From Parapristionchus giblindavisi (lineage: Eukaryota; Nematoda; Chromadorea; Rhabditida; Diplogasteridae), in NCBI GenBank assembly GCA_943737045.1, contig CALSFV010000040.1, positions 248,001 through 312,000 of the forward strand: a stretch of DNA of 64,000 nucleotides, in the 5' to 3' direction. This document shows, in pieces, positions 20,180 through 62,889 of the stretch. Each line of letters opens with the position of its first letter. Position 1 is the stretch's first letter. A program made the position numbers and the translations under genes. The notes under the pieces are model-generated. The model was not told the origin of the DNA, did not search any database, and saw only the letters and a list, made by a program, of their open reading frames with translations.

Positions 20180-20191
20180 CTAAAACTTATG

Positions 20192-20193
<2 letters not shown>

Positions 20194-20261
<68 letters not shown>
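20194..20261. repeat. (TAA)n microsatellite
   Basis: About 68 bp of TAA trinucleotides just upstream of gene P copy 2. Confidence 0.95.
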
Positions 20262-20263
<2 letters not shown>

Positions 20264-21034: not shown

Positions 21035-21250
<216 letters not shown>

Positions 21251-33526: not shown

Positions 33527-34070
33527 CTTAACTAGGGAATGGTTTCTTTGATGCATGAAATTACGGTTAGTGACATACGTAGCGATAATCAGCATGGTCG
33601 ACTTAGTAAGAATCAAGCTCACACTTCCAAGTAATCGTCTAAGGGATATTCTACTGGATATCGTTCGTAAGAACGTGACTAAGCCTGAATGCATCTCGAA
33701 ACACAAAGGTGCTTTTATTCGTCGCGACCTCATGCCATTGGAACTTTCTCAAGAACGACTTGCTAGACAGGAGGCTCGTCGGCTCAATCTGATCGCTGGA
33801 TGTCTTCGTTACGGAGTTCGAGATGATAAGCTAATTCAGTTCAAAACTGAACGTCCTCTCCCTCCTTCATATGCTAATCCCCCCATTGACAATAAGACCA
33901 AAGACCAAAGACCAATGAACCTTACTGCCGATACTATTATCTCAGGTTCTACATCTATCTCATCTCCTGGTACTTCCGCTCCTCCTCCTCCTGACTCAAA
34001 TGCTGATGGCTCTTCCACTTCAAATATCACCACTCGAAAGCAGAAAGCTCCATCATTTGTACCAGGTTAG
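33527..34070 (+). pseudogene. LINE ORF1, 5'-truncated
   Basis: The frame 33555-34070 encodes an ORF1-like C-terminal region: LPSNRLRDILLDIVRKNVTK, GAFIRRDLMPLELSQERLAR, CLRYGVRDDKLIQF and RPLPPSYANPP, then a Pro/Ser/Thr-rich tail ending SFVPG. The blocks RRDL...RL.R.E.R and RPLP are typical of nucleic-acid-binding ORF1 proteins of CR1/Jockey-type LINEs. The N-terminus is cut at the foldback junction. ORF2 starts within its last codons in another frame. Confidence 0.6.
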
Positions 34071-37439: not shown

Positions 37440-38543
37440 AATGAAGCGATGGATTTTCGGAAAGATTTTACAGAAGGACATATTATAATATTATTATTAA
37501 GCTGATTCCAAGAGTCGACTACACGATTAGAAATAAAATTGGCAAAGCGAGTGGATTTAAAAATATGTTTTCTATAAATGAAATTGTTTCTATTCTATTT
37601 TCTATTTGTGCGTATAAAATGTACTTGCATAAGAAAATGACAAATGGTGCTAACGAACGGAAGTCACAATCGAGAGACGAGCGAGATGTAGCCTTCTACA
37701 TCTCGCCCCGCCTCTCGATTGTCTCTCCGCTGCCTCTCTCTAACCCGGCTGACCTTCGTCGCGCGCTATATTACATATAAATGAGATCGGCATAGTTTCT
37801 CAACCATGCAAAACAAGAAAGTCTCTTGTGGGAGTGTTTGGCTACTCTCGTACCAAATAAACAAGTGTATTTTATACGGTCACAAGTCAATACGAGAATA
37901 TCTTGTATTCAGGGAGGGTAGGAAGAAGAGGGGATTATCGAGCTCGATGAGTCCGTGTGTCACTTTGTAGGCGAAGCACAAGTCTGCAAGAGCACGTCGA
38001 TTCTGAAGAGGCTCTAAATTCAGATAAATTAATCGATTAGAATAAAATGTATAAGGAAGTTTGCACTTTGCAAAAATACGTCTAGTATACACTTTTTGAA
38101 CATTTTCAATGATTTTTATCAGCTGTTCCTCGTGGGGAGACCAAAGTTCAGAACAATTTTCGAGAATGGGACGGACGTAGGTCATAAACAGGCGAGAGTA
38201 TAGTTTAGGACTATTGGAGTGGAAAATGCGATAAATATAAGAGCATCTGGATTTCGCTCTGGCGACAATATTACGAATGTGAACCGCGAAAGATAAACGA
38301 TTGCAATAAGTAATACCTAGGTCAGTGAATTCTTTAACAACGGGAAGGCGAGTATGATCGATTGAAAAGTCAATGTTTGGATGATTTTTACCTATTTTCA
38401 TAATGACGGTTTTGGATTGAGAGATAGTTAATCCCCAGTCAATAGACCATTGCAAGAGTGCATCGAGGGCGGTTTGAAGAGCAGAGGGATCATTAAAAGT
38501 GTAAAGTTTCACATCATCTGCATACATTGTGCAATGTACGTTC
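37440..38543 (-). pseudogene. LINE A reverse transcriptase, 3' part, from catalytic YADD onwards
   Basis: Minus-strand 37,880-38,527 begins with the catalytic box MYADDVKLY and continues through the thumb: LQWSIDWGLTISQSKT, ELWSPHEEQLIKIIENVQK, CKLPYTFYSNRLIYLNLE. Beyond the small TIR element at 37,607-37,884 the same protein continues (STRFANFISNRVVDSWNQL) to about 37,440. Its upstream half is at 57,439-57,747, on the far side of the 18.9-kb element. No 3' tail is seen; fragment B abuts it. Confidence 0.8.
37607..37884. mobile_element. 278-bp TIR element inside LINE A
   Basis: Ends TGTGCGTATAAAATGTACTTG on the left and, inverted, TGTGACCGTATAAAATACACTTG on the right (21 of about 23 match, shown in part). 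A decayed relative is at 4,812-4,985. It splits the LINE A C-terminal frame; a target duplication is not obvious. An internal inverted stretch ATCGAGAG...CTCTCGAT is also present. Confidence 0.55.
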
Positions 38544-38576
38544 TTACAATGGGACTCTGTCGTCTCGTTTTGGCCA

Positions 38577-39401
38577 TATGAGATGGCAATATCATGACTA
38601 GAATAAGTGTTCGATGGTGATTACCAATCTCTTCTTTCGGACTGCCTAGACGACCTGTGTTTCGAGAAATTCGATATTGAAATTAAGAGGGTCAATTCGA
38701 AAATTTTAGGGGGGTAGTGCACAAACATTTCGCATGAGTTGGTGAACTCATCTATCAACCTTCAAACCCACGACCTGCGTGATGTAGTGAATAAGATGTG
38801 GCGTTACGTTTTGACTGTAAATGGTTCGATCCATCTTGCGGCACTTTTCTTTTGCTGATTTTCTTGATGTCAAGATGAAACATCAAAAACATTTTTTTTT
38901 AAACATCAAGATCAAAGATCCTTCATTGTGTGTCCAGGATGTAAGAATCGCTTTGTGTGTGACCGTGTGCGTACTTTAACAACAAAATGATCAAAAGAAA
39001 AGCGATTTTTAGATCTTGAACACACAATGAATGATCTTTGATCTTGATGTTTTTTGATGTTTTGTTTAATGTTTTTAAAAAAATATTTTGATGTCATCTT
39101 GACATCAAGAAAATTAGCAAAAGAAAAGTGCTGCAAGAGGGATCGAACCAGTTACAGTCAAAAGGTAACGCAGACACCTCATCCACTACACCGCAGAGGT
39201 CGTAGCTTTGAATGTTGATAGATGAGTTCACCAACTCATACGAAATGTTTGTGCACTACCCCCCGAAAATTTTCGAATTGACCATCGGAATTTCAATATC
39301 GATTTGCTCGAAACTCAGGTCGTCTAGGCAGTCCGAAAAAAGAGATTCTTAATAACCATCGAACACTTATTCTAGTCATGATATTACCATCTCATATAAG
39401 A
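38577..39401. mobile_element. About 824-bp foldback in the left arm only, TA-type target
   Basis: Termini TGAGATGGCAATATCATGAC and GTCATGATATTACCATCTCA sit at a TA; the right arm of the large element has the uninterrupted CCATATAAGAGGCC, which is the empty site. Each arm carries a tRNA-like stretch (38,779-38,846 plus; 39,137-39,195 minus, with GGATCGAACCAGT as box B). Sequences such as CTCAGGTCGTCTAGGCAG relate it to family R. Confidence 0.75.
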
Positions 39402-39429
39402 GGCCTTAGAATAAGAAAGTGGCGTAGAA

Positions 39430-40320
39430 TGAAAAAATCATGATTTGTGCCAATTCTGACGACGTCGAATGTGGCAGAAGGTGACTGACAATGTCGACGT
39501 GTTCATTGTTGGCATTTCTATAAAGCTGTCTGTTTGCCAAATATGCAAAGTGTTTTATTGGCTCATGAAATGCTAACCAAATTATAAAGCTTCATTATTG
39601 GCATTTGGTAAAATACAATCGATGGACAAAAACGAAGACTGAAACATTGGCACAGAGGGAGAGAACAGATAATTGACAATAGTGACGGGATCATAATTGG
39701 CAGACAAAAGTTCAACTAGATTATTTGAAAGATGCCAAAGTTGCAGTCGTCAATATTGGCGATATTCTCAAAATGTCGTTTCGCCAATATATTCGAAGTC
39801 GTAATTGGCATTTTTCGGAAAATTTAATCATGCCAATAAAGCAATGTTCTAATTAGGCAAGGTCAGGAAAATTCGGAAATGCCATTTTTGATGGCGTCAT
39901 TATTGGCAGAAAGGCTTCACTCAGATTTTGCCAACATTGACGCCGTCATTATTGGGCCAAAAATGACGCCGTCATTATTGGCCCAATTATGACGCCGTCA
40001 TTATTGGCAGAAAGGCTTCACTCAGATTTTGCCAACATTGACGCCGTCATTATTGGCAGAAAGGCTTCACTCAGATTTTGCCAACATTGACGCCGTCATT
40101 ATTGGGCCAAAAATGACGCCGTCATTATTGGCCCAATTATGACGCCGTCATTATTGGCAGAAAGGCTTCACTCAGATTTTGCCAACATTGACGCCGTCAT
40201 TATTGGCAGAAAGGCTTCACTCAGATTTTGCCAACATTGACGCCGTCATTATTGGGCCAAATTTGACGCCGTCATTATTGGCCCAATTTTGACGCCGTCA
40301 TTATTGGCAACTTTGACTAC
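39430..40320. repeat. Subterminal array of GCCAATAATGACGGCGTC-type units, left arm
   Basis: The inverse of the unit (GACGCCGTCATTATTGGC) repeats about a dozen times at 39,890-40,310, in variants joined by GCAGAAAGGCTTCACTCAGA or AATTATGACG. Farther out (39,430-39,890) only the core TTGGCA/TGCCAA recurs with unrelated spacers. Mirrored at about 56,448-57,340. Such arrays near TIRs commonly bind transposase in other elements; here that is inference. Confidence 0.75.
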
Positions 40321-40884
40321 TATTAATGATTAAAATCTAAAAGGCAACAATTTAGCGTAGAGATATTGCACGTGGTCTACGTGAGCAGGAAAGAGTGGAG
40401 AGATGGTAGGGATGAAATAGAAGTATGGGATGATAAAAAATCAATAATATATGATACAGTAAGACAACATCCAATCGTGACTAAGGTAGTAATCAAGTAA
40501 GTGTGAAGTAGGACAGACAAGGTGGAGATCAATAAAATATTATGCTGTACAAGGGTCCATTTGAACGGCGAGCTCGCTTCATTGAACGTTGAAGTCGCGG
40601 ACTTATGTCTGGTGGGCGGCCGTGATGACCGGCTGGTCCTGAAACGAAAAAAAACGTTTGATTACTGTAGCCAACTAATCGATATTTCAATCAAGTACAC
40701 TCGCTTAAAGAAGGGAACCCTCGAGTTTTTTCGTAACTAAACTGGTCAGGTTAAAGATCACATCTTCCAGAATACAAAAACAATGTTTCAGAATACCGTA
40801 ATCAAAGCTCAAAGTTCGTTGATGTACCAAGGAAACACCAGGGAATGAACGATTTTTAATATTTGAAATAAAATATATTGAAAA

Positions 40885-40955
40885 TTGCAAACGGGAATCG
40901 AACTCGCGTGGCACGGTTACTAGCACTGACTACTAACCGCTGAGCTATATGGGTG
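40885..40955 (-). other. tRNA-like sequence, left arm
   Basis: Minus-strand box A TAGCTCAGCGG and box B GAGTTCGATTCCC, with nearly tRNA-like spacing. D-stem and acceptor pairing fail, so not a functional tRNA. Mirrored at 55,806-55,875. Confidence 0.5.
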
Positions 40956-41168
40956 ACACTTTCAGCCTCGCGAATCTAATAGAGAATAGAATTCCACATC
41001 GTTGATCCCACGTTCTTCATTATAATATCCATACATTTTTGGTGCCCTCACCGAATTGTTTTTATATAGTTGGTCGATTTAGAAAAATCGTTATTTTTCG
41101 CAAAAATTGTAATCTTTCACATAAAAATGAGCATTATATAGTGGGTCAACCGTGAAAATGCGCCGTAT

Positions 41169-43500
41169 ATCACGGATCTCCTGTAAGAATGAAAGAAGCC
41201 AACCGACAGTTTTAAATTTTATATCACCGATTTGGATGAAACTTGTTTGATTAATCGTAATGAGGGAAATGAGAAGACTTAGGCACTTGATTTCACCAAA
41301 TTTGCATTTCTATCGATTTTTTGATCTACCACTTCGGGGAGCCATATCTCACTCAAATTTTGACCTAAAGCAAAAAATGTTTTTTTCAATCGACTCGAAA
41401 TAAACTAATCTTGAAGTTACTATGCGGAATGTAAGGGCGAAAACGCCATCTTCTACCTGTTTTCTTCGAAAAACTGATTTTTTCAGTACATTATGCTAAT
41501 TTTCTCAAAAATTTTTCAACAAAGGGTACGATTTTTATTCGCGATTCTGATTCCCCATCCCCGAATTGAGGTAAGCATATATTTCATAATCCGTAACTCA
41601 CGACAAGCCACATCGATCCTCAGAGTGGACCCGGACTTTGTGGACCCGGAATTCCCAATTATGGTATACCAATCGAAAGATCTCGGGGGGCGCCCGTTTC
41701 GGCAACGAGTTATAAATCGGTTGGGAGAAGGTCTATGGAAACAAAAGTTGCACCATTGTTATCAGTAGTGGTGTACGGTATGGTGCTACCGTAACCGTCG
41801 GGAATCGTGAACTGATTTTTTTAGTCGACCCATGACCCGGGGTTCATGGTTGAAAATGGCCGAAGTCGAAAAATTCATGATACTCCGAGACCAAATACTA
41901 GTTGCCATAATATCAATAGTGAGCCAACTTGTATCTTTATGGTTACCGTAACCCGAACTACCGTAATCAAACCGGGATTTGAAGCGCATTTGGCCATATT
42001 ATTGCAGGTTACGGTAGCTAGATTACGGTAGTACGGGTTACGGTATCCATAAAGATAAAAGTAGGCTCACTATTGATATAATTGCAACTAGTATTTGATC
42101 TCGGGTCATCATGAATTTTTCGACTTTGGCCATTTTCAACGGTCATGAGTCGACTAAAAAAAATCAGTTCACGATTCCCGACGGTTACGGTAGCACCATA
42201 CCGTACACCACTACTGATAACAATGGTACAACTTTTGTTTCCATAGACCATCTCCTAACCGATTTATAACTCGTTGCCGAAACGGGCGCCCCCCAAGATC
42301 TCGACGAGCTCTATAAAAATTACTTAACAGTAAAAGTCATGAAAGTTGACCGTTTTCAAGATATGCTTGAAAATCCGTTTTTGCACTACCAAATTGCTGT
42401 GCAATGCAATCGATTCGCAAAGGAACGTTCTTTGCTTTCTCCTTTGTGTTTTTTGCACTCTTTCCTCCTTCCCTGACACCCTCTTCCCCTCTCTTTGCAT
42501 GCAGTCAGTGCTCTTCCAGCTTCATTCGACACTCGAATCTCCTCCAGCACATCGACAAGGGGGGAGCACAATATCAGACCCGAGAAGATATCTCAGTACG
42601 ATTTCGCCCTCGGTCTCTACAAGCGAAAGCTCGAGGAAGTGCAGCAAGGAGTAGGAATCTATCTTCTCGTTGAGTCTTTCAAGGAGTACCAGCAAGCTGC
42701 TGATCATCCCAAGCCGATGGGATGGGCACTGAGGATCACGAAGAAGGGAGGTAAGTACAACCAGAAGGCTGGATGATATGCTCATGGATTTGGTGGAGGA
42801 AGAGATTCAGACCGAGGAGGAGGTCGATGTGGAAGAGGATAATAGAGAGAGAGAGGGGAAGAGATAATCACTGCTGAGGCTATCTATGATTTCGTTCACA
42901 GTGATCTCAAGGAGTATTTCAATGATCCGGATATTTTTTTCGATCATTCCGATTCCGATATCGGAAATATCGATGAGTAGTTTCGTATTTCAGAATGCGT
43001 ATTTGCAATAATGAAAATAACGAAGTCCGGGTTTACTCTGAGGATCGATATGGCTTGTCGTGAGTTATGAATTATGGAATATGTGCTTACCTCAATTCGA
43101 GGATGGAGAATCAGAATCGCGAATTAAAATCGTACCCTTTGTTGAAAATTTTTGAGAAAATTAGCCTAATGTACTGAAAAAATCAGTTTTCGAAGAAAAC
43201 AGGTAGAAGATGGCGTTTTCGCCCATACATTCCGCATAGTAACTTCAAGATTAGTTCATTTCGAGTCGATTGAAAAAAAACATTTTTTGCTTTAGGTCAA
43301 AATTTGAGTGAGATATGGCTCCCCGAAGTGGTAGATCAAAAAATCGATAAAAATGCAAATTTAGCGAAATCAAGTGCTTCGGCCTTCTCATTTCCCTAAT
43401 TACGATTAATCAAACAAGTTTCATCCAAATCGGTGAGATAAAATTTAAAACTGTCGGGAAAAGGTCTCATTTTCCTACGTTTGTACAGGAGATCCGTGAT
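41169..43500. mobile_element. Nested foldback N2 (2.33 kb) carrying gene Y, left arm
   Basis: Ends ATCACGGATCTCCTGTA and TACAGGAGATCCGTGAT, arms of about 470 bp (41,169-41,640 and 43,025-43,500). Inside are a further foldback N3 (about 41,670-42,302, centred near 41,990, edges CGGGGGGCGCCCGTTTCGGC and inverse) and gene Y. A truncated relative is at 21,651-21,813. Right-arm mirror: about 53,269-55,600. Confidence 0.7.
42505..42980 (+). CDS. Gene Y, left-arm copy (two visible exons), unknown function
   Basis: Exon 42505-42750 (acceptor CTTTGCATGCAG after a C/T-rich tract; donor GGAG|GTAAGT) and exon 42862-42980 (acceptor GGGGAAG; stop TAG) join in phase 1. The first encodes an alpha-helical-looking region: QYDFALGLYKRKLEEVQQGV then GIYLLVESFKEYQQAAD and PMGWALRITKKG. 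The second is acidic: IITAEAIYDFVHSDLKEYF then DPDIFFDHSDSDIGNIDE. The 5' exon with the start is not identified; the in-frame stretch before 42,505 has no ATG. The mirror copy at 53,789-54,264 keeps the same reading. I recognise no family. Confidence 0.5.
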
Positions 43501-43993
43501 ATAATGGGTCATTCCTCACACTGTGAGGGTATGAAAATGTATGATAATATCGCGCCCTAAATCTCCTTGTTCCCATTTCTTTAATGTTACTTTTAATCAT
43601 TCAAAATAATCACATAAAAGCAAATTGTGGTTGAACGTGGAAAGCTACAGTATTCTGTAGATAGTATTCTGGCTGAATGCAGAATAAAGCTCAGACATAC
43701 GCTTACACGTCGGCGCCCATGTATAAGACAAATCGTAGTCATTTTACAGTATACGGTAACCCTGATCTTTGACCCTCTACCGTAACCCTGATAGTTGACC
43801 CTCTACAGTAACCATACATTTTCATACCCTCACAGTGTGAGGATTGACCCACTATATTCGGCTAATTTTCAGGGTCGACCCACTATATAAGTTCATTTTT
43901 ATGTGAAAAATTAAAATTTAAGCGAAAAATAACGATTTCTCTAAATAGACCCACTATATAAAAATAATTCGGTGAGGGCACCGAAAATGTATG

Positions 43994-44225
43994 ACAGTAA
44001 CCATGATCTTTGACCCTCTAACGTAACCCTGATCGTTGACCCTCTACCGTAACCCTGATCTTTGATCCTCTACCGTAACCCTGATCTTTGACCCTCTACC
44101 GTAACCCTGATCTTTGACCCTCTACCGTAACCCTGATCTTTGACCCTCTACCGTAACCCTTATGTTTATTCTTCTACAATAACCCTAGTCTTTGATCTTC
44201 TACCGTAACCCTTACTGATCTTTGA
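43994..44225. repeat. Minisatellite, 26-27-bp unit, left arm
   Basis: About eight units of CCCTCTACCGTAACCCTGAT plus CTTTGA. Mirrored at about 52,544-52,775. It lies directly after exon 6 of gene X, in intron 6. Confidence 0.85.
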
Positions 44226-44471
44226 TCTTTACCTGAGTCAGAGTGCACGCTACAGCGACCGTATCCTGTTCGAGCAGTGCGAGTCGACGGAAGACCGCCT
44301 TGAAGGCGTCCACGGGGCTTCGATTTGTGACTACAAATGACATAATTGATAGTTGTTTTAAGACAAATTTCTCTCTTGTGCGATCAATGACATTAGCAAA
44401 ATGGGAGCACGCCGTCACGTAAAGCAGCGTTATATTGCGCCTACGTACACATATCCACGTCCATTTTGGAG

Positions 44472-44652
44472 CATACATTTTTGGTTTTCCTCATCGGATT
44501 GTTTTATATAGTTAGCCGATTTTCGAAATACAGTGGGTCAGTTTAGAAAAATCGTTATTTTTCGCTTAAATTGTAATCTTTCATATAAAAAATACCCTTA
44601 TAGCATTATATGGTGGGTGGATCCTCACTTTGTGAGGGTATGCAAATGTATG
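44472..44652. mobile_element. 181-bp foldback N4, left arm
   Basis: Ends CATACATTTTTGGTTTTCC and ...TGCAAATGTATG; related to the N1 termini. Mirrored at 52,117-52,297, just upstream of exon 6 of gene X. Confidence 0.55.
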
Positions 44653-46557
44653 ATTTTGGAATATTTTAAGGCGAACTCGAAAACGGAGATTGGTATACGG
44701 TAAGAGGTTATAGTAACCATCAATCAAAAATGGTTGATAACCGTAATCTTTTACAGTAATTTTATGACAATCAATAATCGGCTACCGTACCTTCTCCCCA
44801 CTATGCTATGGTGCTCGCATTCCAATACTGCTCTCATTCGACATAACATCGTTGATCGTACTTCCACCTGAGAGCAATCGATAATCAGACAATAATTGAC
44901 GAAAAAAATATTAATCGGGTTCCCTAGAACTGAAAGCCATCATTTCTCTACTTCAATTTATGTCCTAAAACTAGCTAAAAACGACACAGAAGCTGTTCGG
45001 CCATGTCCTCTTTCTTTCATGTTTCAACATAATCAAAATACGTGTCCACACAATATTTACACAAATGTGCAATCAAGAATAAAGGAACAAGTAATCCCTA
45101 CGGTGGCATTCACATTTCCAAAAAAACCATCACATGCATGCATTTTCGAGCATCCATATTGTGGGTACGGCTCAGTTTATCATTTTGGTTGGCTTATAAA
45201 AAACGGGTCAATTTACCGATTTTGGTTACAAAAAGAGCAAACAATGAACAATTTTTGGGAAATACTGCAAGCCTCCAAACTTGGGTGACTTCTGCCTATT
45301 ACAATCAATACTTTGGACCCACAGTAGTCAATCGATAATTGATAATTAATCGGTAATTGGACTGACCTTCATCATATCCATGATGACGCTGCCCGTGCCG
45401 TGTTTGGCCCAAATTTGGACGACTGGGGGGGGCGGCCGAACCAGAAGCCATACGTATACCTGGAACAATAAAACCATCACTATATCGATTTTGAATGGAT
45501 TCACAGCAAAAATTAACTTAAAACAGATTCATGTAATCGTAAATTAGTCAATATATCTATTATTTAAGAAATATACTGTAACGATCGATTGAAAGCACAA
45601 AACTACAATCGTAAATTATTCGATATATCGATTTTTAGTACACATTCTGTCATCGTACAACAGAGAGTATAAAGATTTTAATAGATTTTTGTAATTATTG
45701 ATTGCCAACTGACCGGTAGACCTTATCTCCAGATTGTTTGGTATTCTTCGGTTGAGGTGCACTGAAGTCATGATGTGGGTAGCACATCTCGATTTCCTTC
45801 TGTTCATCTTTCTTCTTCTGGAATAAGAACCGGTTAACATCACATTATAAACTAATCATAACAGGAAAAGAATGGGTTCGAACGAACAGAACGTTCTGTT
45901 CGTTGCCCAATGATTTATTTATTGTTTCAACATAAGTTCCAAGCATTGTAAACAGGAAGCATGTGTAATAACTTTAAAGGAACTCCGCGAGCGCATCTAC
46001 TCTACGCTCTTGCAATCTTGCAACGCTCTCTCATAGACAAAAGCAAGGGAGAACTGCCAGAACGGATGGTTTCACAATAGCTCGGAATACGCGTGTAAAC
46101 AAAACAAGACTTCCTGTTAATAACGTATAAGCAACCCAGCATGACACCCTCCACTCCTGTTTAGCCTCTCAGACGACAAGGAGTTTAATAAATTGTACGT
46201 TAAAAAACGAAATATTGGTACACGCACATTAAAGTTAAAACTATAAATTACAAATTGCATTGAACTTTCTATCTAAGTTTTTCTATCTATCTAAGTTCTA
46301 TCTATTTCCTTATAACAATGAGGCTCGTGGCATTGAAATATACGTACCATAAATGGATTTACTCTATGGAGTGGCAACGGCATCGAGGATTGAGCGTGCT
46401 TTCCAAGTTTCGGTCATGGATCGAGAACGATTCCATGCTGTCTCTGTCCTCCGTTCTAGAAGACGGAAAGCACTTAACATAAAATGAAAATCGAGAAGTA
46501 TCAAACAGAACGTAGATAATTAAAAGCAAATTACGAAAATTACGAAAAAACGACCGT

Positions 46558-46629
46558 CAGTTCATGATAGCAATTACTTCATTCTGTAGTCAAAAACGTC
46601 AAACTAAAACTAAAACACAGTCGTGAGTT
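46558..46629. promoter_or_regulatory. Asymmetric centre (spacer) of the 18.9-kb palindrome
   Basis: About 72 bp, between ...CGACCGT and ACGGTCG..., is the only part of the centre that is not inverted. It lies between the divergent starts of the two gene X copies (ATG at 46,804 plus and 46,383 minus), so the shared region 46,384-46,803 should hold a bidirectional promoter. No TATA box is evident. Confidence 0.5.
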
Positions 46630-46803
46630 ACGGTCGTTTTTTCGTATTTTTTGTAATTTACTTTTGATTATCTTCGTTCTGTTTGATACTTCTCGATTTT
46701 CATTTTATGTTAAGTACTTTCCGTCTTCTAGAACGGAGGACAGTGACAGCATGGAATCGTTCTCGATCCATGACCGAAACTTGGAAAGCACGCTCAATCC
46801 TCG

Positions 46804-49800
46804 ATGCCGTTGCCACTCCATAGAGTAAATCCATTTATGGTACGTATATTTCAATGCCACGAGCCTCATTGTTATAATGAAATAGATAGAACTTAGATAG
46901 ATAGAAAAACTTAGATAGAAAGTTCAATGCAATTTGTAACGAATGTGATTCTGTTCTTGAATTCTTTTCGCTCAGTTCGTCTGTATCTTTAAATAATTAA
47001 ATTAAGAATGATTATAATTGATACATAAATTCCTATTTAAGGTATGTGTGCACGACGAGGACCTCGCCGATGGAAGTCGTCGTGATCGACGACACAGAAA
47101 GCCAAACATTACTGGACCAGTGAACTTTGTGTCCGGCGGAATCAAACATTGCAGCCGTCTAACGGAGGAAGTGAGCGTCTATTTATCATGTTGTTTTACA
47201 TATACCATAAGGCACAATTATTGATTTAATTTGATTAATATTTTATAGTTTTCACTTTAATGTGCGTGTACCAATATTTCGTTTTTTAACGTACAATTTA
47301 TTAAATTCCTTGTCGTCTGAGAGGCTAAACAGGAGTGGAGGGTGTCATGCTGGGTTGCTTATACGTTATTAACAGGAAGTCTTGTTTTGTTTACACGCGT
47401 ATTCCGAGCTATTGTGAAACCATCCGTTCTGGCAGTTCTCCCTTGCTTTTGTATATGAGAGAGCGTTGCAAGATTGCAAGAGCGTAGAGTAGATGCGCTC
47501 GCGGAGTTCCTTTAAAGTTATTACACATGCTTCCTGTTTACAATGCTTGGAACGTATGTTGAAACAATAAATAAATCACTGGGCAACGAACAGAACCCAT
47601 TCTTTTCCTGTTATGATTAGTTTATAATGTGATGTTAACCGGTTCTTATTCCAGAAGAAGAAAGATGAACAGAAGGAAATCGAGATGTGCTACCCACATC
47701 ATGACTTCAGTGCACCTCAACCGAAGAATACCAAACAATCTGGAGATAAGGTCTACCGGTCAGTTGGCAATCAATAATTACAAAAATCTATTAAAATCTT
47801 TATACTCTCTGTTGTACGATGACAGAATGTGTACTAAAAATCGATATATCGAATAATTTACGATTGTAGTTTTGTGCTTTCAATCGATCGTTACAGTATA
47901 TTTCTTAAATAATAGATATATTGACTAATTTACGATTACATGAATCTGTTTTAAGTTAATTTTTGCTGTAAATCCATTCAAAATCGATATAGTGATGGTT
48001 TTATTGTTCCAGGTATACGTATGGCTTCTGGTTCGGCCGCCCCCCAGTCGTCCAAATTTGGGCCAAACACGGCACGGGCAGCGTCATCATGGATATGATG
48101 AAGGTCAGTCCAATTACCGATTAATTATCAATTATCGATTGACTACTGTGGGTCCAAAGTATTGATTGTAATAGGCAGAAGTCACCCAAGTTTGGAGGCT
48201 TGCAGTATTTCCCAAAAATTGTTCATTGTTTGCTCTTTTTGTAACCAAAATCGGTAAATTGACCCGTTTTTTATAAGCCAACCAAAATGATAAACTGAGC
48301 CGTACCCACAATATGGATGCTCGAAAATGCATGCATGTGATGGTTTTTTTGGAAATGTGAATGCCACCGTAGGGATTACTTGTTCCTTTATTCTTGATTG
48401 CACATTTGTGTAAATATTGTGTGGACACGTATTTTGATTATGTTGAAACATGAAAGAAAGAGGACATGGCCGAACAGCTTCTGTGTCGTTTTTAGCTAGT
48501 TTTAGGACATAAATTGAAGTAGAGAAATGATGGCTTTCAGTTCTAGGGAACCCGATTAATATTTTTTTCGTCAATTATTGTCTGATTATCGATTGCTCTC
48601 AGGTGGAAGAACGATCAACGATGTTATGTCGAATGAGAGCAGTATTGGAATGCGAGCACCATAGCATAGTGGGGAGAAGGTACGGTAGCCGATTATTGAT
48701 TGTCATAAAATTACTGTAAAAGATTACGGTTATCAACCATTTTTGATTGATGGTTACTAGGGTTGCAGGAACGGGGGCGAATTCTACGCACCCAATTGCC
48801 ATCCCTTCCCTTCTCTCTAGCAATCGCCCGTGAGAGACACTCTCTCCCTTCCTAAATTCGTAGTTTGGCCTATCACTGCGAGAGAGTGCGTAGTCCCCGC
48901 ACCTTTGCGGGGACTACGCACTCTTTCTCGCCTCTCCTTGACCCTATCCCTACTCTCTCTTCGCTCCACCTTGCTAGCCCCCATTGGGGCACGTTTGAAG
49001 AGATATCCAACTCACCTCTCATCTGAGAGCTTGGCAGTCAACAGCAAAGTTGTAGCTCACATCGACCCGATTCTGATTCTTTTTTGGAAAAGTCGATACG
49101 ATCAAAACAAACGAAATTACATTCGTTCTAGGGTTTCAGATGGAAATCGAATCAATTACCGTTGAAATAAGTGTTGGTGTGGACATTTGAATTTCTCTCA
49201 ATGAACATAGGAATCAGATTTCCCCCTGAATATTTATTATGTTGAGTTCCTGTCATTCCATCTATTTTTCATTTCAATGATTCAATGTCTCGAGAAGGAC
49301 ATTGTTAACCTCTCATGGTCCGCTCTTCCACTCTCGTCGCTCCGCTGGTTGTGAGATTATCTATGACAGATCAATAAAAATTCGCATACCATAAATATGT
49401 CCCGGTGTCCGAGACTGTTACATTGTTTTCATTTTTCACAGTCTTGATGCAGTATTTATTATCTAAGTGTTTTTAGTGTGGATTTGTTTGCCCAATGCAC
49501 TTATGTATAATAATAATAAAATGAAAAAAAAACAGCTAGCGCAGCGAAGCAAAATTGGTATACTGCAGCATACTGTAGAATGTTTCTGTAAATGTGCTAA
49601 CATCATGATTTCACCTTATTATGGATGTATCTCATTACATGACACCATTCATTGAACTTACACAGACCGTGGTGATACAAATAATGTGTTTAAAAGGGGT
49701 TCTCGCTAAGACGGCAAGCAAAGTGGCACAGTTGGTGAAAATCGTTTCTATGCGCTCAAACTTCAGAGATGGAGTGCCTAGGGGTGGGATACACTTCAGC

Positions 49801-52800
49801 GAAAAAATTGGACTCCAAATGCGATTTTTTTACCCTCTTTCAAACGTGAACATCGATTGGTTGAGCTTGTCCGAATCTGGAACCGTACTAATGGTTTGCC
49901 CTCAAATGAGGCTTGTTCGCAGGTATGCATGGCTTAATCTTTTATCTGAGCATATCACCGCTGGCAGGATCAACCAGGTAACTGTCATACGTCAGAGTCG
50001 TAGATTTGCATGCCCGATGTAGTGTTTCTAAACAATCCTCAAGGAATCCTAAAGGAGAAAGGGCGTGTGACGGACACACAAACAAACAAACAAACAGACA
50101 GACGTGCCCTATCATTTTATAGAATAAAGTAACTCTCTCGAGCTATTCAGCGATCGTGACTTTAGTAGAGTCAAGAACTCGTCATTTGCATACTTTATCA
50201 GCTAAATATGTCAAGAAAACTACTTTCTTAAGGTCATACACATTGACAAAAGCCTTGGGCAGCATTGGAAAGCCAGCGAAAAATCAGCAAAAAACATTGT
50301 CCTGGCTGGGGTTCGAACCCACCATAGGAAAATGAGCTCGATCGGGCGATAGCCTTGGCTTAAAAGTGATGTTTAGACATAATCGATTTTTCTCAATTAA
50401 TTTTTATTAAATTCTACATTAAATTTGCTACAAGATAGCGTCAGTGGAATTCCCCGGAGATTATTGTAAAGTGCTGATTTATTTTTTTAAAGATTGAAAA
50501 CGTCCAAAAATTACGGGAGCTATACTAGACCTAGAGCTCTGAGAATTTATATTCTAGCATAACTTTTTGCGCTCTTTCGAATGGTATATAACAAGATAGG
50601 AAAATCTCAACTTTATTTTTCGCGAGATCAAAGATCAAAGATCACATTTGGAGTCCAATTTTTTGGCTGAAGTGTATCCCACCCCTAGGCACTCCATCTC
50701 TGAAGTTTGAGCGCATAGAAACGATTTTCACCAACTGTGCCATCTTCCATCCCGTTCACTGCATTCTTACCGAGAACGCCTTTTAAATTGTTAAGTATCA
50801 TTTTAAACAAAGTAAAGTATTGTTTGAAATATTTTTGAGATATTTGAATTTTTGTAGCTAAAATATTTTTAAAATTATTTTCAAAAAATCTAAGCCGTGC
50901 ATTCGATAGCTAATACTGTCTATATTCCACGCAAAAAATATTTCAGGTCGAAATACGAAGTTAAGTTAAGTTATGACCTTTTAAAAGTTGTTTTCATTCG
51001 GTTTGGTCTTTGTCTGAAGCTCTCTCTTATCTCCATTGTCTCTCGACTACTCTCCGTCAATGCAACAGTATCGTATCGATTGTTTCATTCGAGATAGACT
51101 CAACTGCTCATTCCACCGATCTACTCAATAGTCTAAACTCCCGACAAAGTCATACAGCTCCCGCCAAGAATTGCAGCCGTTTCTAAACGGGATCGTAATC
51201 GTCCCTGTCGAATCTTCTGGAATCAGGACTGAATGATGTTTACAAAAACATTCTACAGTATGCTGCAGTATACCAATTTTGCTTCGCTGCGCTAGATGTT
51301 TTTTAAATTTTTTTATTATTATACATAAGTGCATTGGGCAAACAAATCCACACTAAAAACACTTAGATAATAAATACTGCATCAATACTGTGAAAAATGA
51401 AAACAATGTAACAGTCTCGGACACCGGGACATATTTATGGTATGCGAATTTTTATTGATCTGTCATAGATAATCTCACAACCAGCGGAGCGACGAGAGTG
51501 GAAGAGCGGACCATGAGAGGTTAACAATGTTCTTCTCGAGACATTGAATCATTGAAATGAAAAATAGATGGAATGACAGAAACTCAACATAATAAATATT
51601 CAGGGGAGAAATCTGATTCCTAAGTTCATTGAGAGAAATTCAAATGTCCACACCAACACTTATTTCAACGGTAATTGATTCGATTTCCATCTGAAACCCT
51701 AGAACGAATGTAATTTCGTTTGTTTTGATCGTATCGACTTTTCCAAAAAAGAATCAGAATCGGGTCGATGTGAGCTACAACTTTGCTGTTGACTGCCAAG
51801 CTCTCAGATGAGAGGGGAGTTGGATATGTCTTCAAACGTGCCTCAATGGGGGCGAGCAAGGTGGAGCGAAGAGAGAGTAGGGATAGGGTCAGGGAGAGGC
51901 GAGAAAGAGTGCGTAGTCCCCGCAAAGGTGCGGGGACTACGCACCCTCCGGCTGTCTCTAATCTCTCGTGCGGGAAATGCCGAGAGAGGGGCAAGAGATG
52001 GGAAGAGGGCGCGGTAAATTCGACTACGCCTACGCAACGGCAACCCTAATGGTTACTATAACCTCTTACCGTATACCAATCTCCGTTTTCGAGTTCGCCT
52101 TAAAACATTCCAAAATCATACATTTGCATACCCTCACAAAGTGAGGATCCACCCACCATATAATGCTATAAGGGTATTTTTTATATGAAAGATTACAATT
52201 TAAGCGAAAAATAACGATTTTTCTAAACTGACCCACTGTATTTCGAAAATCGGCTAACTATATAAAACAATCCGATGAGGAAAACCAAAAATGTATGCTC
52301 CAAAATGGACGTGGATATGTGTACGTAGGCGCAATATAACGCTGCTTTACGTGACGGCGTGCTCCCATTTTGCTAATGTCATTGATCGCACAAGAGAGAA
52401 ATTTGTCTTAAAACAACTATCAATTATGTCATTTGTAGTCACAAATCGAAGCCCCGTGGACGCCTTCAAGGCGGTCTTCCGTCGACTCGCACTGCTCGAA
52501 CAGGATACGGTCGCTGTAGCGTGCACTCTGACTCAGGTAAAGATCAAAGATCAGTAAGGGTTACGGTAGAAGATCAAAGACTAGGGTTATTGTAGAAGAA
52601 TAAACATAAGGGTTACGGTAGAGGGTCAAAGATCAGGGTTACGGTAGAGGGTCAAAGATCAGGGTTACGGTAGAGGGTCAAAGATCAGGGTTACGGTAGA
52701 GGATCAAAGATCAGGGTTACGGTAGAGGGTCAACGATCAGGGTTACGTTAGAGGGTCAAAGATCATGGTTACTGTCATACATTTTCGGTGCCCTCACCGA

Positions 52801-55800
52801 ATTATTTTTATATAGTGGGTCTATTTAGAGAAATCGTTATTTTTCGCTTAAATTTTAATTTTTCACATAAAAATGAACTTATATAGTGGGTCGACCCTGA
52901 AAATTAGCCGAATATAGTGGGTCAATCCTCACACTGTGAGGGTATGAAAATGTATGGTTACTGTAGAGGGTCAACTATCAGGGTTACGGTAGAGGGTCAA
53001 AGATCAGGGTTACCGTATACTGTAAAATGACTACGATTTGTCTTATACATGGGCGCCGACGTGTAAGCGTATGTCTGAGCTTTATTCTGCATTCAGCCAG
53101 AATACTATCTACAGAATACTGTAGCTTTCCACGTTCAACCACAATTTGCTTTTATGTGATTATTTTGAATGATTAAAAGTAACATTAAAGAAATGGGAAC
53201 AAGGAGATTTAGGGCGCGATATTATCATACATTTTCATACCCTCACAGTGTGAGGAATGACCCACTATATCACGGATCTCCTGTACAAACGTAGGAAAAT
53301 GAGACCTTTTCCCGACAGTTTTAAATTTTATCTCACCGATTTGGATGAAACTTGTTTGATTAATCGTAATTAGGGAAATGAGAAGGCCGAAGCACTTGAT
53401 TTCGCTAAATTTGCATTTTTATCGATTTTTTGATCTACCACTTCGGGGAGCCATATCTCACTCAAATTTTGACCTAAAGCAAAAAATGTTTTTTTTCAAT
53501 CGACTCGAAATGAACTAATCTTGAAGTTACTATGCGGAATGTATGGGCGAAAACGCCATCTTCTACCTGTTTTCTTCGAAAACTGATTTTTTCAGTACAT
53601 TAGGCTAATTTTCTCAAAAATTTTCAACAAAGGGTACGATTTTAATTCGCGATTCTGATTCTCCATCCTCGAATTGAGGTAAGCACATATTCCATAATTC
53701 ATAACTCACGACAAGCCATATCGATCCTCAGAGTAAACCCGGACTTCGTTATTTTCATTATTGCAAATACGCATTCTGAAATACGAAACTACTCATCGAT
53801 ATTTCCGATATCGGAATCGGAATGATCGAAAAAAATATCCGGATCATTGAAATACTCCTTGAGATCACTGTGAACGAAATCATAGATAGCCTCAGCAGTG
53901 ATTATCTCTTCCCCTCTCTCTCTCTATTATCCTCTTCCACATCGACCTCCTCCTCGGTCTGAATCTCTTCCTCCACCAAATCCATGAGCATATCATCCAG
54001 CCTTCTGGTTGTACTTACCTCCCTTCTTCGTGATCCTCAGTGCCCATCCCATCGGCTTGGGATGATCAGCAGCTTGCTGGTACTCCTTGAAAGACTCAAC
54101 GAGAAGATAGATTCCTACTCCTTGCTGCACTTCCTCGAGCTTTCGCTTGTAGAGACCGAGGGCGAAATCGTACTGAGATATCTTCTCGGGTCTGATATTG
54201 TGCTCCCCCCTTGTCGATGTGCTGGAGGAGATTCGAGTGTCGAATGAAGCTGGAAGAGCACTGACTGCATGCAAAGAGAGGGGAAGAGGGTGTCAGGGAA
54301 GGAGGAAAGAGTGCAAAAAACACAAAGGAGAAAGCAAAGAACGTTCCTTTGCGAATCGATTGCATTGCACAGCAATTTGGTAGTGCAAAAACGGATTTTC
54401 AAGCATATCTTGAAAACGGTCAACTTTCATGACTTTTACTGTTAAGTAATTTTTATAGAGCTCGTCGAGATCTTGGGGGGCGCCCGTTTCGGCAACGAGT
54501 TATAAATCGGTTAGGAGATGGTCTATGGAAACAAAAGTTGTACCATTGTTATCAGTAGTGGTGTACGGTATGGTGCTACCGTAACCGTCGGGAATCGTGA
54601 ACTGATTTTTTTAGTCGACTCATGACCGTTGAAAATGGCCAAAGTCGAAAAATTCATGATGACCCGAGATCAAATACTAGTTGCAATTATATCAATAGTG
54701 AGCCTACTTTTATCTTTATGGATACCGTAACCCGTACTACCGTAATCTAGCTACCGTAACCTGCAATAATATGGCCAAATGCGCTTCAAATCCCGGTTTG
54801 ATTACGGTAGTTCGGGTTACGGTAACCATAAAGATAAAAGTTGGCTCACTATTGATATTATGGCAACTAGTATTTGGTCTCGGAGTATCATGAATTTTTC
54901 GACTTCGGCCATTTTCAACCATGAACCCCGGGTCATGGGTCGACTAAAAAAATCAGTTCACGATTCCCGACGGTTACGGTAGCACCATACCGTACACCAC
55001 TACTGATAACAATGGTGCAACTTTTGTTTCCATAGACCTTCTCCCAACCGATTTATAACTCGTTGCCGAAACAGGCGCCCCCCGAGATCTTTCGATTGGT
55101 ATACCATAATTGGGAATTCCGGGTCCACAAAGTCCGGGTCCACTCTGAGGATCGATGTGGCTTGTCGTGAGTTACGGATTATGAAATATATGCTTACCTC
55201 AATTCGGGGATGGGGAATCAGAATCGCGAATAAAAATCGTACCCTTTGTTGAAAAATTTTTGAGAAAATTAGCATAATGTACTGAAAAAATCAGTTTTTC
55301 GAAGAAAACAGGTAGAAGATGGCGTTTTCGCCCTTACATTCCGCATAGTAACTTCAAGATTAGTTTATTTCGAGTCGATTGAAAAAAACATTTTTTGCTT
55401 TAGGTCAAAATTTGAGTGAGATATGGCTCCCCGAAGTGGTAGATCAAAAAATCGATAGAAATGAAATCAAGTGCCTAAGTCTTCTCATTTCCCTCATTAC
55501 GATTAATCAAACAAGTTTCATCCAAATCGGTGATATAAAATTTAAAACTGTCGGTTGGCTTCTTTCATTCTTACAGGAGATCCGTGATATACGGCGCATT
55601 TTCACGGTTGGCCCACTATATAATGCTCATTTTTATGTGAAAGATTACAATTTTTGCGAAAAATAACGATTTTTCTAAATCGACCAACTATATAAAAACA
55701 ATTCGGTGAGGGCACCAAAAATGTATGGATATTATAATGAAGAACGTGGGATCAACGATGTGGAATTCTATTCTCTATTAGATTCGCGAGGCTGAAAGTG

Positions 55801-56156
55801 TCACCCATATAGCTCAGCGGTTAGTAGTCAGTGCTAGTAACCGTGCCACGCGAGTTCGATTCCCGTTTGCAATTTTCAATATATTTTATTTCAAATATTA
55901 AAAATCGTTCATTCCCTGGTGTTTCCTTGGTACATCAACGAACTTTGAGCTTTGATTACGGTATTCTGAAACATTGTTTTTGTATTCTGGAAGATGTGAT
56001 CTTTAACCTGACCAGTTTAGTTACGAAAAAACTCGAGGGTTCCCTTCTTTAAGCGAGTGTACTTGATTGAAATATCGATTAGTTGGCTACAGTAATCAAA
56101 CGTTTTTTTTTTCGTTTCAGGACCAGCCGGTCATCACGGCCGCCCACCAGACATAA
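46804..56156 (+). CDS. Gene X, right-arm copy (226 aa, 7 exons), unknown function
   Basis: Exons 46804-46839, 47042-47170, 47655-47758, 48013-48103, 48603-48679, 52329-52536 and 56121-56156 total 681 nt: 226 codons plus TAA. Donors are GTACGT, GTGAGC, GTCAGT, GTCAGT, GTACGG and GTAAAG; acceptors TTTAAG, ATTCCAG, GTTCCAG, CTCTCAG, TACGTAG and GTTTCAG. All junction phases agree. Blocks: MPLPLHRVNPFM; KPNITGPVNFVSGGIKHC; Lys-rich KKKDEQKEIE; YRYTYGFWFGRPPVVQIWAK then HGTGSVIMDMMK; SHFANVIDRTREKFVLKQLS; AFKAVFRRLALLEQD. No known domain is evident; ITGPVNF...H faintly recalls a CRIB motif but I do not call it. A hAT-like element lies in intron 5 and N1/N2 in intron 6. Reading on past exon 6 instead ends after VKIKDQ, so the last exon is the least certain. 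Confidence 0.55.
47390..47520. mobile_element. Diverged MITE, right arm (mirror at about 45,970-46,095)
   Basis: ATTCCGAGCTATTGTGAAAC and CGGAGTTCCTTTAAAG edges, with AGAGCGTAGAGTAGATGCG inside, resemble the AGCTAATTT family in layout and in the words around TCTACGCTC. It lies in intron 2 of gene X. Confidence 0.4.
48758..52048. mobile_element. 3,291-bp hAT-like element in intron 5 of gene X, 8-bp duplication, right arm only
   Basis: Ends TAGGGTTGC and GCAACCCTA are flanked by ATGGTTAC on both sides (48750-48757, 52049-52056). The left arm retains the empty site TTGATGGTTACTATAACC. The outer 750 bp or so form inverted arms, with GTGCGTAGTCCCCGCA hairpins at about 48,885 and 51,915. Inside is another inverted pair (about 49,770-49,860 and 50,640-50,740). 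No hAT transposase is recognisable. Terminus and 8-bp duplication fit hAT. Confidence 0.85.
50300..50365 (-). other. tRNA-like box B region inside the hAT-like element
   Basis: Minus strand GGTGGGTTCGAACCCCAGCC is a perfect box B context, preceded by AAGCCAAGGCTATCGCCCGA. No cloverleaf is convincing. Confidence 0.35.
52117..52297. mobile_element. 181-bp foldback N4, right arm
   Basis: Mirror of 44,472-44,652; ends CATACATTTGCATACCC and GGAAAACCAAAAATGTATG. Confidence 0.55.
52544..52775. repeat. Minisatellite, 26-27-bp unit, right arm
   Basis: About eight units of ATCAGGGTTACGGTAGAGGG plus TCAAAG; mirror of 43,994-44,225. Confidence 0.85.
52776..55739. mobile_element. Nested TIR element N1 with N2 and N3, right arm
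   Basis: Mirror of 41,030-43,993 with a few substitutions and small indels (for example a 9-bp gap near 55,460 relative to the left arm). N2 spans about 53,269-55,600. It fills intron 6 of gene X. Confidence 0.65.
53789..54264 (-). CDS. Gene Y, right-arm copy, unknown function
   Basis: Mirror of the left-arm copy on the minus strand: exon 54,264-54,019 (donor GTAAGT) and exon 53,907-53,789 (stop TAG). The reading frames are the same at protein level as far as I can see, in contrast to gene X, whose two copies differ. It runs antisense within intron 6 of gene X. Start exon not identified; function unknown. Confidence 0.5.
55806..55875 (+). other. tRNA-like sequence, right arm
   Basis: Box A TAGCTCAGCGG, box B GAGTTCGATTCCC; T-stem pairs four of five, other stems do not. 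Mirror of 40,885-40,955. Lies in intron 6 of gene X. Confidence 0.5.
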
Positions 56157-56447
56157 GTCCGCGACTTCAACGTTCAATGAAGCGAGCTCGCCGTTCAAAT
56201 GGACCCTTGTACAGCATAATATTTTATTGATCTCCACCTTGTCTGTCCTACTTCACACTTACTTGATTACTACCTTAGTCACGATTGGATGTTGTCTTAC
56301 TGTATCATATATTATTGATTTTTTATCATCCCATACTTCTATTTCATCCCTAACATCTCTCCACTCTTTCCTGCTCACGTAGACCACGTGCAATATCTCT
56401 ACGCTAAATTGTTGCCTTTTAGATTTTAATCATTAATAGTAGTCAAA

Positions 56448-57340
56448 GTTGCCAATAATGACGGCGTCAAAATTGGGCCAATAATGACGGCGTCAAATTT
56501 GGCCCAATAATGACGGCGTCAATGTTGGCAAAATCTGAGTGAAGCCTTTCTGCCAATAATGACGGCGTCATAATTGGGCCAATAATGACGGCGTCATTTT
56601 TGGCCCAATAATGACGGCGTCAATGTTGGCAAAATCTGAGTGAAGCCTTTCTGCCAATAATGACGGCGTCAATGTTGGCAAAATCTGAGTGAAGCCTTTC
56701 TGCCAATAATGACGGCGTCATAATTGGGCCAATAATGACGGCGTCATTTTTGGCCCAATAATGACGGCGTCAAAGTTGGCACAATCTGAGTGAAGCCTTT
56801 CTTGCCAATAATGACGGCGTCAATGTTGGCAAAATCTGAGTGAAGTCTTTCTGCCAATAATGACGCCATCAAAAATGGCATTTCCGAATTTTCCTGACCT
56901 TGCCTAATTAGAACATTGCATTATTGGCATTCCATCCGGAAAAGTAATTTGCCAATTTTGATCGCAGAATTATTGGCGGAAATGAATTTTAACGTTTCCG
57001 CCAATTTTGCTACTTTCAATATTGTCAACGTTCGATGCGCCAAAAACGAATGGATCATTATTGGCCATGCCAACATTTACATCGTCAAATTTGTCTCCAT
57101 TTCCCGTGACAAAATGGCTGCCGTCAATTTTGGCAACATCCCCTACCTCACCCACTTGCCAATTATTCAAGATGCATTATTGGCAACAAAAAGTCTGCCA
57201 ACATTGATCATTGATTATTTGTCATTTTCTTGTTTCTCACTGGAAGACAATAAATAAAGAATCAAAATTGGCAATTGTACAATTTCATACACATGACAAC
57301 ATTGCACACTGCTTTATTGGCATGCCAAATCCGACGTCGT
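56448..57340. repeat. Subterminal array of GCCAATAATGACGGCGTC-type units, right arm
   Basis: A dozen or so units at 56,448-56,880, joined by AAAATCTGAGTGAAGCCTTT, then the degenerate zone with TTGGCA/GCCAAT cores every 20-40 bp to about 57,340. Counts and spacers differ slightly from the left arm. Confidence 0.75.
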
Positions 57341-57438
57341 CAGAGTTGGCTAAAATCGATCTTCATCTCATTCTACGCCACTTTCTTATTCTAAGGCCTC
57401 TTATATGGCCAAAACGAGACGACAGAGTCCCCTTGTTA

Positions 57439-57747
57439 GGTAGAATACGAGGAAGATCAGAGATATAAAGAGAGAACAATAGAGGCCCAAGACAGCTACC
57501 CTGAGGAACCCCGGAAGAAGCCTTGAATGGAGCGGAAACAGCGTCACCTACCACAACGCATTGATATCTATTAGACAGGAAAGAGTGTACAAAGTTTAGT
57601 AGGGAACCTTTAATTCCTAACAAGCAGCAAGCACATTTGTGTAGGAGCAAATTGATAGGGATTGAAAATTTATTTTGATCTAGAGCTGGAAGCCAATGCG
57701 AAAATGAAGAAATCAATGCAGAATTACACGATCTGAACGTACGATAC
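57439..57747 (-). pseudogene. LINE A reverse transcriptase, 5' part
   Basis: Minus-strand frame encodes LGIKGSLLNFVHSFLSNRYQ, SGVPQGSCLGPLLFSLYISD and PRILP, the RT blocks just before the catalytic YADD, which lies at 38,527 on the far side of the 18.9-kb element. It is 5' truncated at a family T terminus near 57,747. Confidence 0.8.
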
Positions 57748-57841
57748 CCATAAGAACTCGCGAGAGCGGCCCTATAGCACGCTTGGTTCACGAAATATAA
57801 CAAAAACAAAAAGTTGGCACTGACTTTCCGGCGCTACTGTA
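57748..57841. mobile_element. Terminal fragment of a family T Tc1-like element
   Basis: From CCATAAGAACTCGCGAGAGC to CCGGCGCTACTG, followed by TA. Only one end is present. Confidence 0.6.
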
Positions 57842-62390: not shown

Positions 62391-62880
62391 TCAATAATAG
62401 AGAAAGTAAGATTGACCACTAGTGGATGAAATATTCATACGATTAGGTGGTTGTCTACTACGGGAAGGCCTTGTAGAACCGGGTCTAACCACGGTTGCCT
62501 TAGGATCAGTCTTCTTGTTGTTCTCCACATTGTTCGTGGGCACGACGACAGCATCAGAATCGACAGCAATGATGGCGGCGGCATCAGCGGCAGACGGCGG
62601 AACGTTGCAGTTTACGGGCTCGACCGGGTTGTTGCACTCGACGTTGTTGGCGGGAACATTGAAGCTCTCAAGCAAGACACTCAGAGGATCACTATCCTCA
62701 GTCCATCGCTTTCTCAACTGATTCGTATGAGCAGTCACAAGACTACCATCCAATCTCTGGACTTCATACATCACATTTCCTTTCTTTCTGAGCACTACGG
62801 CTTCAGACCACTTTTCGTGATTCGGACCATCCCGATCACGATAGTATACAGTGTCTCCTTCTGCGAACACTCGTGTCACC
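62391..62880 (-). pseudogene. C-terminal end of a Ty3/Gypsy-like integrase polyprotein
   Basis: The minus-strand frame encodes FAEGDTVYYRDRDG, KWSEAVVLRKKGNVMYEVQ, and HTNQLRKRW, the SH3-like/GPY-F module that follows the integrase core in Gypsy elements. An Ala/Pro/Asn-rich tail with RPSRSRQPPNRMN follows, then a stop near 62,391. Everything upstream (integrase core, RNase H, RT, protease, gag) is missing: the sequence breaks at about 62,885 into family T DNA. A dead fragment. Confidence 0.75.
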
Positions 62881-62889
62881 TTTTTTTTT

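Follow-up and report, generated by a model that had tools for sequence, protein, structure and literature searches.

Giant palindromic elements, probably foldback DNA transposons, with concertedly evolving arms in the nematode Parapristionchus giblindavisi

Instability is expected of long, nearly perfect palindromes. The closest described systems to the element reported here are foldback-type DNA transposons. In Galileo, a P-superfamily element of Drosophila, the terminal inverted repeats (TIRs) of one copy are 98 to 100% identical and are extended by the recruitment of internal sequence through recombination or conversion (PMC3573991), and the target-site duplication is 7 bp, compared to 8 bp for P (PMC4168063). 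The Tm1 Mutator/Foldback elements of Meloidogyne have a 9-bp duplication (PMC3169594). We examined a 64,000-bp stretch of Parapristionchus giblindavisi DNA (the window; assembly GCA_943737045.1, contig CALSFV010000040.1, positions 248,001 to 312,000, forward strand) in which an almost fully palindromic element of 18,005 bp, termed B, occupies positions 39398 to 57402. We consider it likely, with a probability of roughly 0.77, that B is a giant non-autonomous foldback DNA transposon which is moved in trans and whose arms recombine within the molecule. Genome searches utilized the window's own assembly (251 Mb in 703 contigs), in which the nematode cuticle collagen N-terminal domain (Pfam PF01484) gave 150 matches, compared to 0 in 14 control genomes, as befits a nematode; copies are named by contig (C2, C388 and so on), with W denoting the window copy.

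Three nested insertions were detected in the window: a miniature inverted-repeat transposable element (MITE), A, in a long interspersed nuclear element (LINE); B near the right end of A; and a further element, E3, in the right arm of B. The LINE reverse-transcriptase frame lies on the minus strand and is interrupted, with its downstream part at 37880-38527 and its upstream part, starting at the second TTA, at 57436-57809; it is continuous (..DLPRILPKNVHCTMYADDVKLYTF..) once 38547-57435 and one TTA are removed. An earlier note on this DNA had read that whole interval as a single 18.9-kb element whose insertion had produced a 3-bp duplication. The rejoined frame was confirmed, as were the matching termini (CAATGGGACTC at 38547 and, reversed, CAAGGGGACTC at 57435) with TTA on either side, and these features favor a single element with CAANGGGACTC ends. 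The same ends, however, belong to a complete MITE at other loci. A search with positions 38544-38700 showed that the left terminus belongs to a foldback of ∼880 bp, MITE A, whose end it forms (40 scored of 1,595 candidate matches). Eight loci were fetched, the window and seven others; six of the seven showed both ends, and these represented four distinct elements of 875 to 883 bp, on C14, C277, C434 and C271. PIF/Harbinger elements have a 3-bp TWA duplication, and the four A elements were likewise flanked by TTA or TAA. The uninterrupted target site of B (..CTCATATGGCC..) was present in all four.

In the window, A is a foldback of ∼880 bp with CAANGGGACTC ends and a TTA duplication, split into an outer 851 bp on the left (38547-39397, plus strand, with a self-palindrome at 38576-39397 whose last 4 bp are the left ATAT of B) and 33 bp on the right (57403-57435, plus strand, opening with the right ATAT of B). 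The right-end query included the CAANGGGACTC end; the 39 other scored matches all fell short of it, starting at query base 28 or later, with the ATAT starting at base 33. In the left-end search, in which the ATAT started at base 9, C7 started at base 2 and the remaining 38 of 39 scored others at base 7 or later. The end searches and the A copies elsewhere indicated that A holds the LINE insertion with its 3-bp duplication and that B is a separate element, flanked by ATAT, near the right end of A. A landed in the LINE earlier, and B then landed in A. As the searches stopped at B's own boundaries, where the ATAT duplications lie, the single 18.9-kb element was rejected and is barely credible.

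The search for the TIR pattern AAGAGGNNTTAGAATAAGAAAGTGGCGTAGAATGA with up to two mismatches produced 115 matches genome-wide and 0 matches for a reversed-pattern control, which excluded chance. At least 41 facing pairs of ends were formed from 82 of the 100 listed ends (115 in total), spanning 984 to 24,089 bp with a median of 16,572 bp, and 36 of the 41 were 13.5 kb or longer. Matching 4-bp duplications, as found around the several copies of a foldback-type (long-TIR) DNA transposon, were present in 32 of the 33 pairs examined. A first set of pairs had direct duplications in 23 of 23 cases (22 ATAT and 1 ATAA) and a second set in 9 of 10 (8 ATAT and 1 ATGT), the exception being C35, with ACAT and ATAT. 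Because ATAA and ATGT were directly oriented, the four bases represent a target duplication and not part of the TIR; a duplication of 2 or 3 bp was rejected, as these two copies require 4 bp. The target sites were CATATG-like. The family is young, since 27 of the 39 scored right ends other than that of the window were at least 98% identical to the window's. Among the copies of the first set with duplications, flanks were shared up to the junction only between C388 and C7. These two copies (C388:187505-203060 and C7:1472835-1489535) were found at the same site of a common host repeat with the left (L) and right (R) ends exchanged, flanks 92 to 95% identical over about 0.7 to 0.9 kb per side and the spacer in the same orientation relative to the flanks; the host repeat is itself partly inverted, blurring its orientation. 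An element of 984 bp (C214:532743-533726) had one CC-type and one GG-type TIR, ATAT on both sides and only an 81-bp imperfect TIR, and is perhaps a small deletion form of the B family.

The window copy of B has ATAT duplications at 39394-39397 and 57403-57406 and asymmetric ends. The L end (39398-39829, plus strand) consists of the 35-bp TIR AAGAGGCCTTAGAATAAGAAAGTGGCGTAGAATGA and 397 bp that are not mirrored at the other end, with the inverted match starting at B position 433. The R end (56931-57402, minus strand) carries the same TIR followed by a different subterminal sequence, and the inverted match stops 472 bp from this end. Self-comparison placed the left arm at 39830-46557 (plus strand) and the right arm at 46630-56930 (minus strand), on either side of a central spacer of 72 bp (46558-46629, plus strand). 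Subterminal tandem arrays were detected with Tandem Repeats Finder in the left arm (39888-40309, plus strand, TGACGCCGTCATTATTGG-type units) and the right arm (56450-56878, minus strand). The earlier note was correct on the 72-bp spacer, but its arms of about 8 kb each were revised to 7,161 bp on the left and 10,773 bp on the right, the right arm being longer because of the one-sided 3.3-kb insert E3 and a 0.3-kb stretch (about 46939-47242) with no left counterpart. C2 appears to hold this near-center stretch in both arms. The three main arm blocks of the window copy were 97.4 to 98.3% identical with gaps counted. A nested foldback of ∼624 bp was mirrored at 41678-42301 and 54468-55090 and likewise in both arms of C292, C388 and C2. 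A reading of the center as two separate foldbacks was rejected, the 72-bp spacer proving to be the true center, and the folding of the spacer was nothing special (z, −1.33).

All seven of the larger copies compared whole (W, C292, C388, C2, C72, C235 and C87) were palindromic; W, C292, C388, C2 and C72 are referred to below as the five full copies. Arm identity was 99.3% in C292 (11.8 kb), 98.8% in C388 (15.6 kb), 97.3% in C2 (16.9 kb), 99.7% in C72 (16.2 kb) and 97.7% in C87 (5.2 kb), while the blocks of C235 (5.8 kb) were 91.5 to 97.2% identical. Full copies had arms of about 5.5 to 8 kb, excluding one-armed inserts, and a spacer of usually ∼70 to 80 bp. All five shared the same end asymmetry: the inverted match began 433 bp from the L end and stopped 472 bp short of the R end, points which in C388 and C2 were reached by the shorter, outermost block. 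C72 had no more than about 2 kb of its arm in common with W, and its own nested foldback was present in both of its arms. In an older group of elements with GGGGTTAG ends, one mirrored piece each was identical in C226 (501/501), C652 (501/501) and, as far as the edge of the fetched stretch, C222 (225/225). Neither the C226 nor the C652 left piece matched any of the five full copies, and that of C222 did so over 46 to 51 bp. These results indicated that quite different arms are mirrored alike.

The inverted arms around a short spacer could also represent a head-to-head dimer of a monomeric, gene-carrying transposon mobilized by its outer ends, as the earlier note had proposed. The center of the window copy, however, contained no TIR, with a scan of the whole window at up to 12 mismatches in 33 bases detecting the two outer ends only. 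Spacer homologues were present near the middle of older elements too, giving no sign of a monomer, and a search for TIR cores with another continuation, as expected of monomeric relatives or of a candidate autonomous relative, gave 10 matches compared to 10 in the control. Pfam scans were performed in six frames, with X at stops, on 9,951 bp of the C388 piece, 8.4 kb of C72, E3 and pieces of C652, C226 and C403. No domain exceeded its family cut-off in these pieces; below the cut-off, there were only weak matches to TIP_N, DUF6527, a plant cysteine-rich domain and DUF1896. B therefore looks non-autonomous, and the dimer, rejected for its missing central TIR and a core search equal to the control, is very unlikely. 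There was likewise no Pfam match to a P-type transposase in the scanned pieces, most of the 41 pairs being known by their ends only, and an autonomous member could be among those pairs. Polintons (Mavericks) resemble B in size range and inverted termini and have a 6-bp duplication. B, unlike these elements, has a 4-bp duplication and no large unique core, and no Polinton polymerase or integrase gene matched above the cut-off in the C388 and C72 pieces or in E3, the part of the window copy that was scanned. The earlier conclusion that this is not a Polinton was therefore retained.

Comparison of the five full copies demonstrated that the two arms of a copy are much more alike than arms of different copies. 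Four-way alignments were made for the 10 pairs of these copies, which are not independent, using columns with all four letters and a local identity of at least 80%. Two-against-two sites were concerted, with a copy's own arms alike, in 736 cases, versus 2 cases of an LL|RR and 1 of an LR|RL pattern; of the other four-way sites, 302 differed in one arm only and 4 were of other kinds. A similar difference was detected in the unique sequence immediately inward of the tandem array, where the mean arm difference in 23 copies was 0.19% within copies compared to 3.25% for shuffled partners, and none of 20,000 shuffles was as low as 0.19% (minimum, 0.63%). These 23 copies with both arms remained after omission of C10_L and C35_L (too short), C221b_R and C52_L (no anchor), the R end of C10 (L036, terminus not found) and L037, L038 and L065-L068 (C389 and older-group ends); C15_R, C37_R and C67_R were utilized as possible partners only in a comparison of closest arms.

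Differences between the arms were graded towards the center. In the five copies, mismatches amounted to 72/480 at 0 to 100 bp from the center, 38/746 at 100 to 250 bp, 14/1224 at 250 to 500 bp, 6/2483 at 500 to 1,000 bp, 6/4998 at 1 to 2 kb, 21/9964 at 2 to 4 kb and 64/14460 at 4 to 8 kb, so that arms differed by 15% beside the spacer versus about 0.1% at 1 to 2 kb. The rate peaked within 100 bp of the center in four of the five copies and at 100 to 250 bp in C2; C292 lacked a spacer match, and its center was placed by eye. The 72-bp spacer had 29 matches in the genome, including the window's own, and was located in the middle fifth of the element in 22 of 24 placeable cases, with 5 of the 29 lacking paired ends among the listed ends. 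Its orientation relative to the ends, as assembled, was determined for 15 B copies with both ends and was divided 8 (including the window) to 7. The graded mismatches and the mixed spacer orientation favor post-insertion recombination between the arms. In yeast, spacer inversion and arm homogenization are described as joint products of template switching between short inverted repeats (PMC8604942), and conversion with rare inversions is described for a human Y palindrome (PMC3723533). By eye, the inner ∼150 bp of the arms at the C2 center (L074/L075) were of two central types, window-like on one side and C388-like on the other, and this center looks as if two copies had combined.

The arms are long and alike enough to confuse phasing, and an assembly artifact, whether from hairpin-chimeric reads or from polishing that equalized the arms and placed spacers at random, could generate the 8:7 ratio of spacer orientations in particular. 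Such an origin is nevertheless quite unlikely, given that 32 of 33 paired copies were flanked by matching 4-bp duplications, that among the first-set copies flanks were shared up to the junction only by C388 and C7 and that arms remained nearly identical immediately inward of the ends, a region in which reads are anchored by unique flanks. Features confined to one arm, among them E3 and the 0.3-kb difference, have survived, and the older group was also palindromic where read, except for the C403 piece.

E3 (48758-52048) was present in the right arm only and is a foldback of ∼3.3 kb with TAGGGTTGC.. ends and an 8-bp ATGGTTAC duplication. An 8-bp duplication is a feature of hAT elements, and E3 appears hAT-like as judged by its ends and duplication; no Pfam match to a hAT transposase was detected in its six frames, as expected of a non-autonomous copy. 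A 201-bp query over the E3 junction matched 201/201 at the window and at C50 and was complete nowhere else among 40 scored matches, while the pre-insertion half of the junction was found intact (100/100) on both arms of several copies, e.g., C353, C219, C206, C2 and C1. As the C50 copy has the same junction but host flanks that differ from those of the window, the 18-kb element has moved together with its one-armed insert. The proposal of a giant foldback mobilized as one unit is thus supported for B, with its at least 41 pairs, its 32 of 33 duplications and its C50 sibling, but not for the interval 38547-57435.

These data also bear on whether transposition itself creates each copy as a perfect palindrome, by self-copying of a hairpin or single-strand intermediate, with decay but no exchange between arms thereafter. 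Own arms would then be sisters at nearly all two-against-two sites, as was observed, and the identical mirror pieces of C226, C652 and C222 also agree with such a birth. It is, however, improbable in view of the L and R ends, which differ in the five full copies and join the arms at the same 433/472 points, and of the 8:7 mixture of spacer orientations. Decay since birth should furthermore be even, whereas the observed differences were graded towards the center, and the siblings on C40 (the window) and C50 share a one-armed insert, indicating that this transposition did not rebuild the palindrome.

We infer instead that B would be moved by a transposase supplied in trans and that, after insertion, intramolecular pairing of its two arms would lead to recombination between them. 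Identical arms would result from non-crossovers or from template switches during replication and a flipped spacer from crossovers, while a failure of pairing within about 100 to 250 bp of the center would allow differences to persist there. New inserts would enter one arm, as E3 did here, and would later be copied to both arms or erased, such that arm content would turn over and mirror symmetry would stay. Several observations weigh against parts of this account. No transposase with B ends was found in the scanned parts. By a distance counting mismatches and gaps, the own partner was unbeaten in 11 of 23 copies, but at least one foreign arm was closer in 12 of 23, and C1b, which is far from all other copies, strongly raised the shuffled mean. 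The 12 copies with a closer foreign arm suggested that homogenization is incomplete or that exchange between copies also occurs, as would be expected of a young family with some inter-copy exchange. The central excess of mismatches was carried largely by C2 and C72, and without these copies the first three bins contained 21/293, 3/448 and 2/750 mismatches. With near-identical arms of 7 kb, an assembler could orient the spacer at random. There was also no mirror match in the fetched piece of C403, a member of the older group.

The architecture and behavior of B have a precedent in Galileo, and it is the extent of the inverted repeat that sets B apart. Like Galileo and Foldback-like elements, B has long, internally repetitive TIRs, subterminal tandem repeats and many defective copies. 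Unlike Galileo, it has a duplication of 4 bp (ATAT, ATAA or ATGT) and not of 7 bp, or the 8 bp of P, and its inverted repeat spans nearly the whole element (12 to 18 kb in the five full copies and, in the family, probably as much as 24 kb), with asymmetric ends and a spacer in both orientations. The nematode Tm1 elements share a foldback architecture, non-autonomous groups and nested inserts with B (PMC3169594) but differ in their 9-bp duplication compared to 4 bp, this comparison being one of descriptions and not of sequences. AT-rich 4-bp duplications (AWWT or ATAT) are described for Sola2 of dictyostelids (PMC3627910); this sole shared feature is a lead only, and B is not filed as Sola. Conversion that keeps the arms identical, with rare inversions, is likewise described for mammalian Y-chromosome palindromes (PMC3723533), and inverted-repeat structure is conserved more than sequence in Caenorhabditis (PMC1803023). 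The Y palindromes and the long inverted repeats of C. elegans are resident loci, whereas B is a multi-copy mobile element with the same behavior. No description of a giant palindromic transposon family was found among the titles and abstract beginnings listed from the open-licence literature.

Other features of the window were a direct repeat of 1,110 bp (99.9% identical, 32574-33683 and 62891-64000), the copies of which are 30.3 kb apart and enclose the LINE and B, the second reaching the window edge. A 207-amino-acid frame near this repeat (62391-63014) resembles, by eye only, the tail of a long terminal repeat retrotransposon pol. Simple-repeat runs at 20189-21252 were mutually inverted, with an apparently three-base unit. 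Many inverted pairs of 0.2 to 0.7 kb, 87 to 99% identical, were also detected (e.g., 1047-3197, 11135-13039, 29080-30741 and 31322-33525), and foldback structure seems frequent among several repeats of this genome, including the insertion sites of C388/C7 and C214. An Rfam scan of the window gave 0 matches.

Overall, these analyses describe a family of palindromes with a median length of 16.6 kb that has spread recently through an animal genome and in which the growth of foldback TIRs has been extended to nearly the whole element. A further, tentative and rather doubtful possibility is that palindromy itself is the conserved trait, such that the asymmetric ends and short spacer are kept while the ∼7-kb arms are freely replaced through arm-to-arm copying and erasure, and that such elements survive by virtue of being giant, flip-flopping palindromes. 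If so, an element might benefit, for example, from using its second arm as a repair template or from folding back while it transposes. As neither the ends nor the spacer share in the palindrome, arm exchange can be followed in each copy by internal markers, and with many copies available, it becomes possible outside sex chromosomes to measure how often palindrome gene conversion occurs, how long its tracts are and how close to the center it extends.

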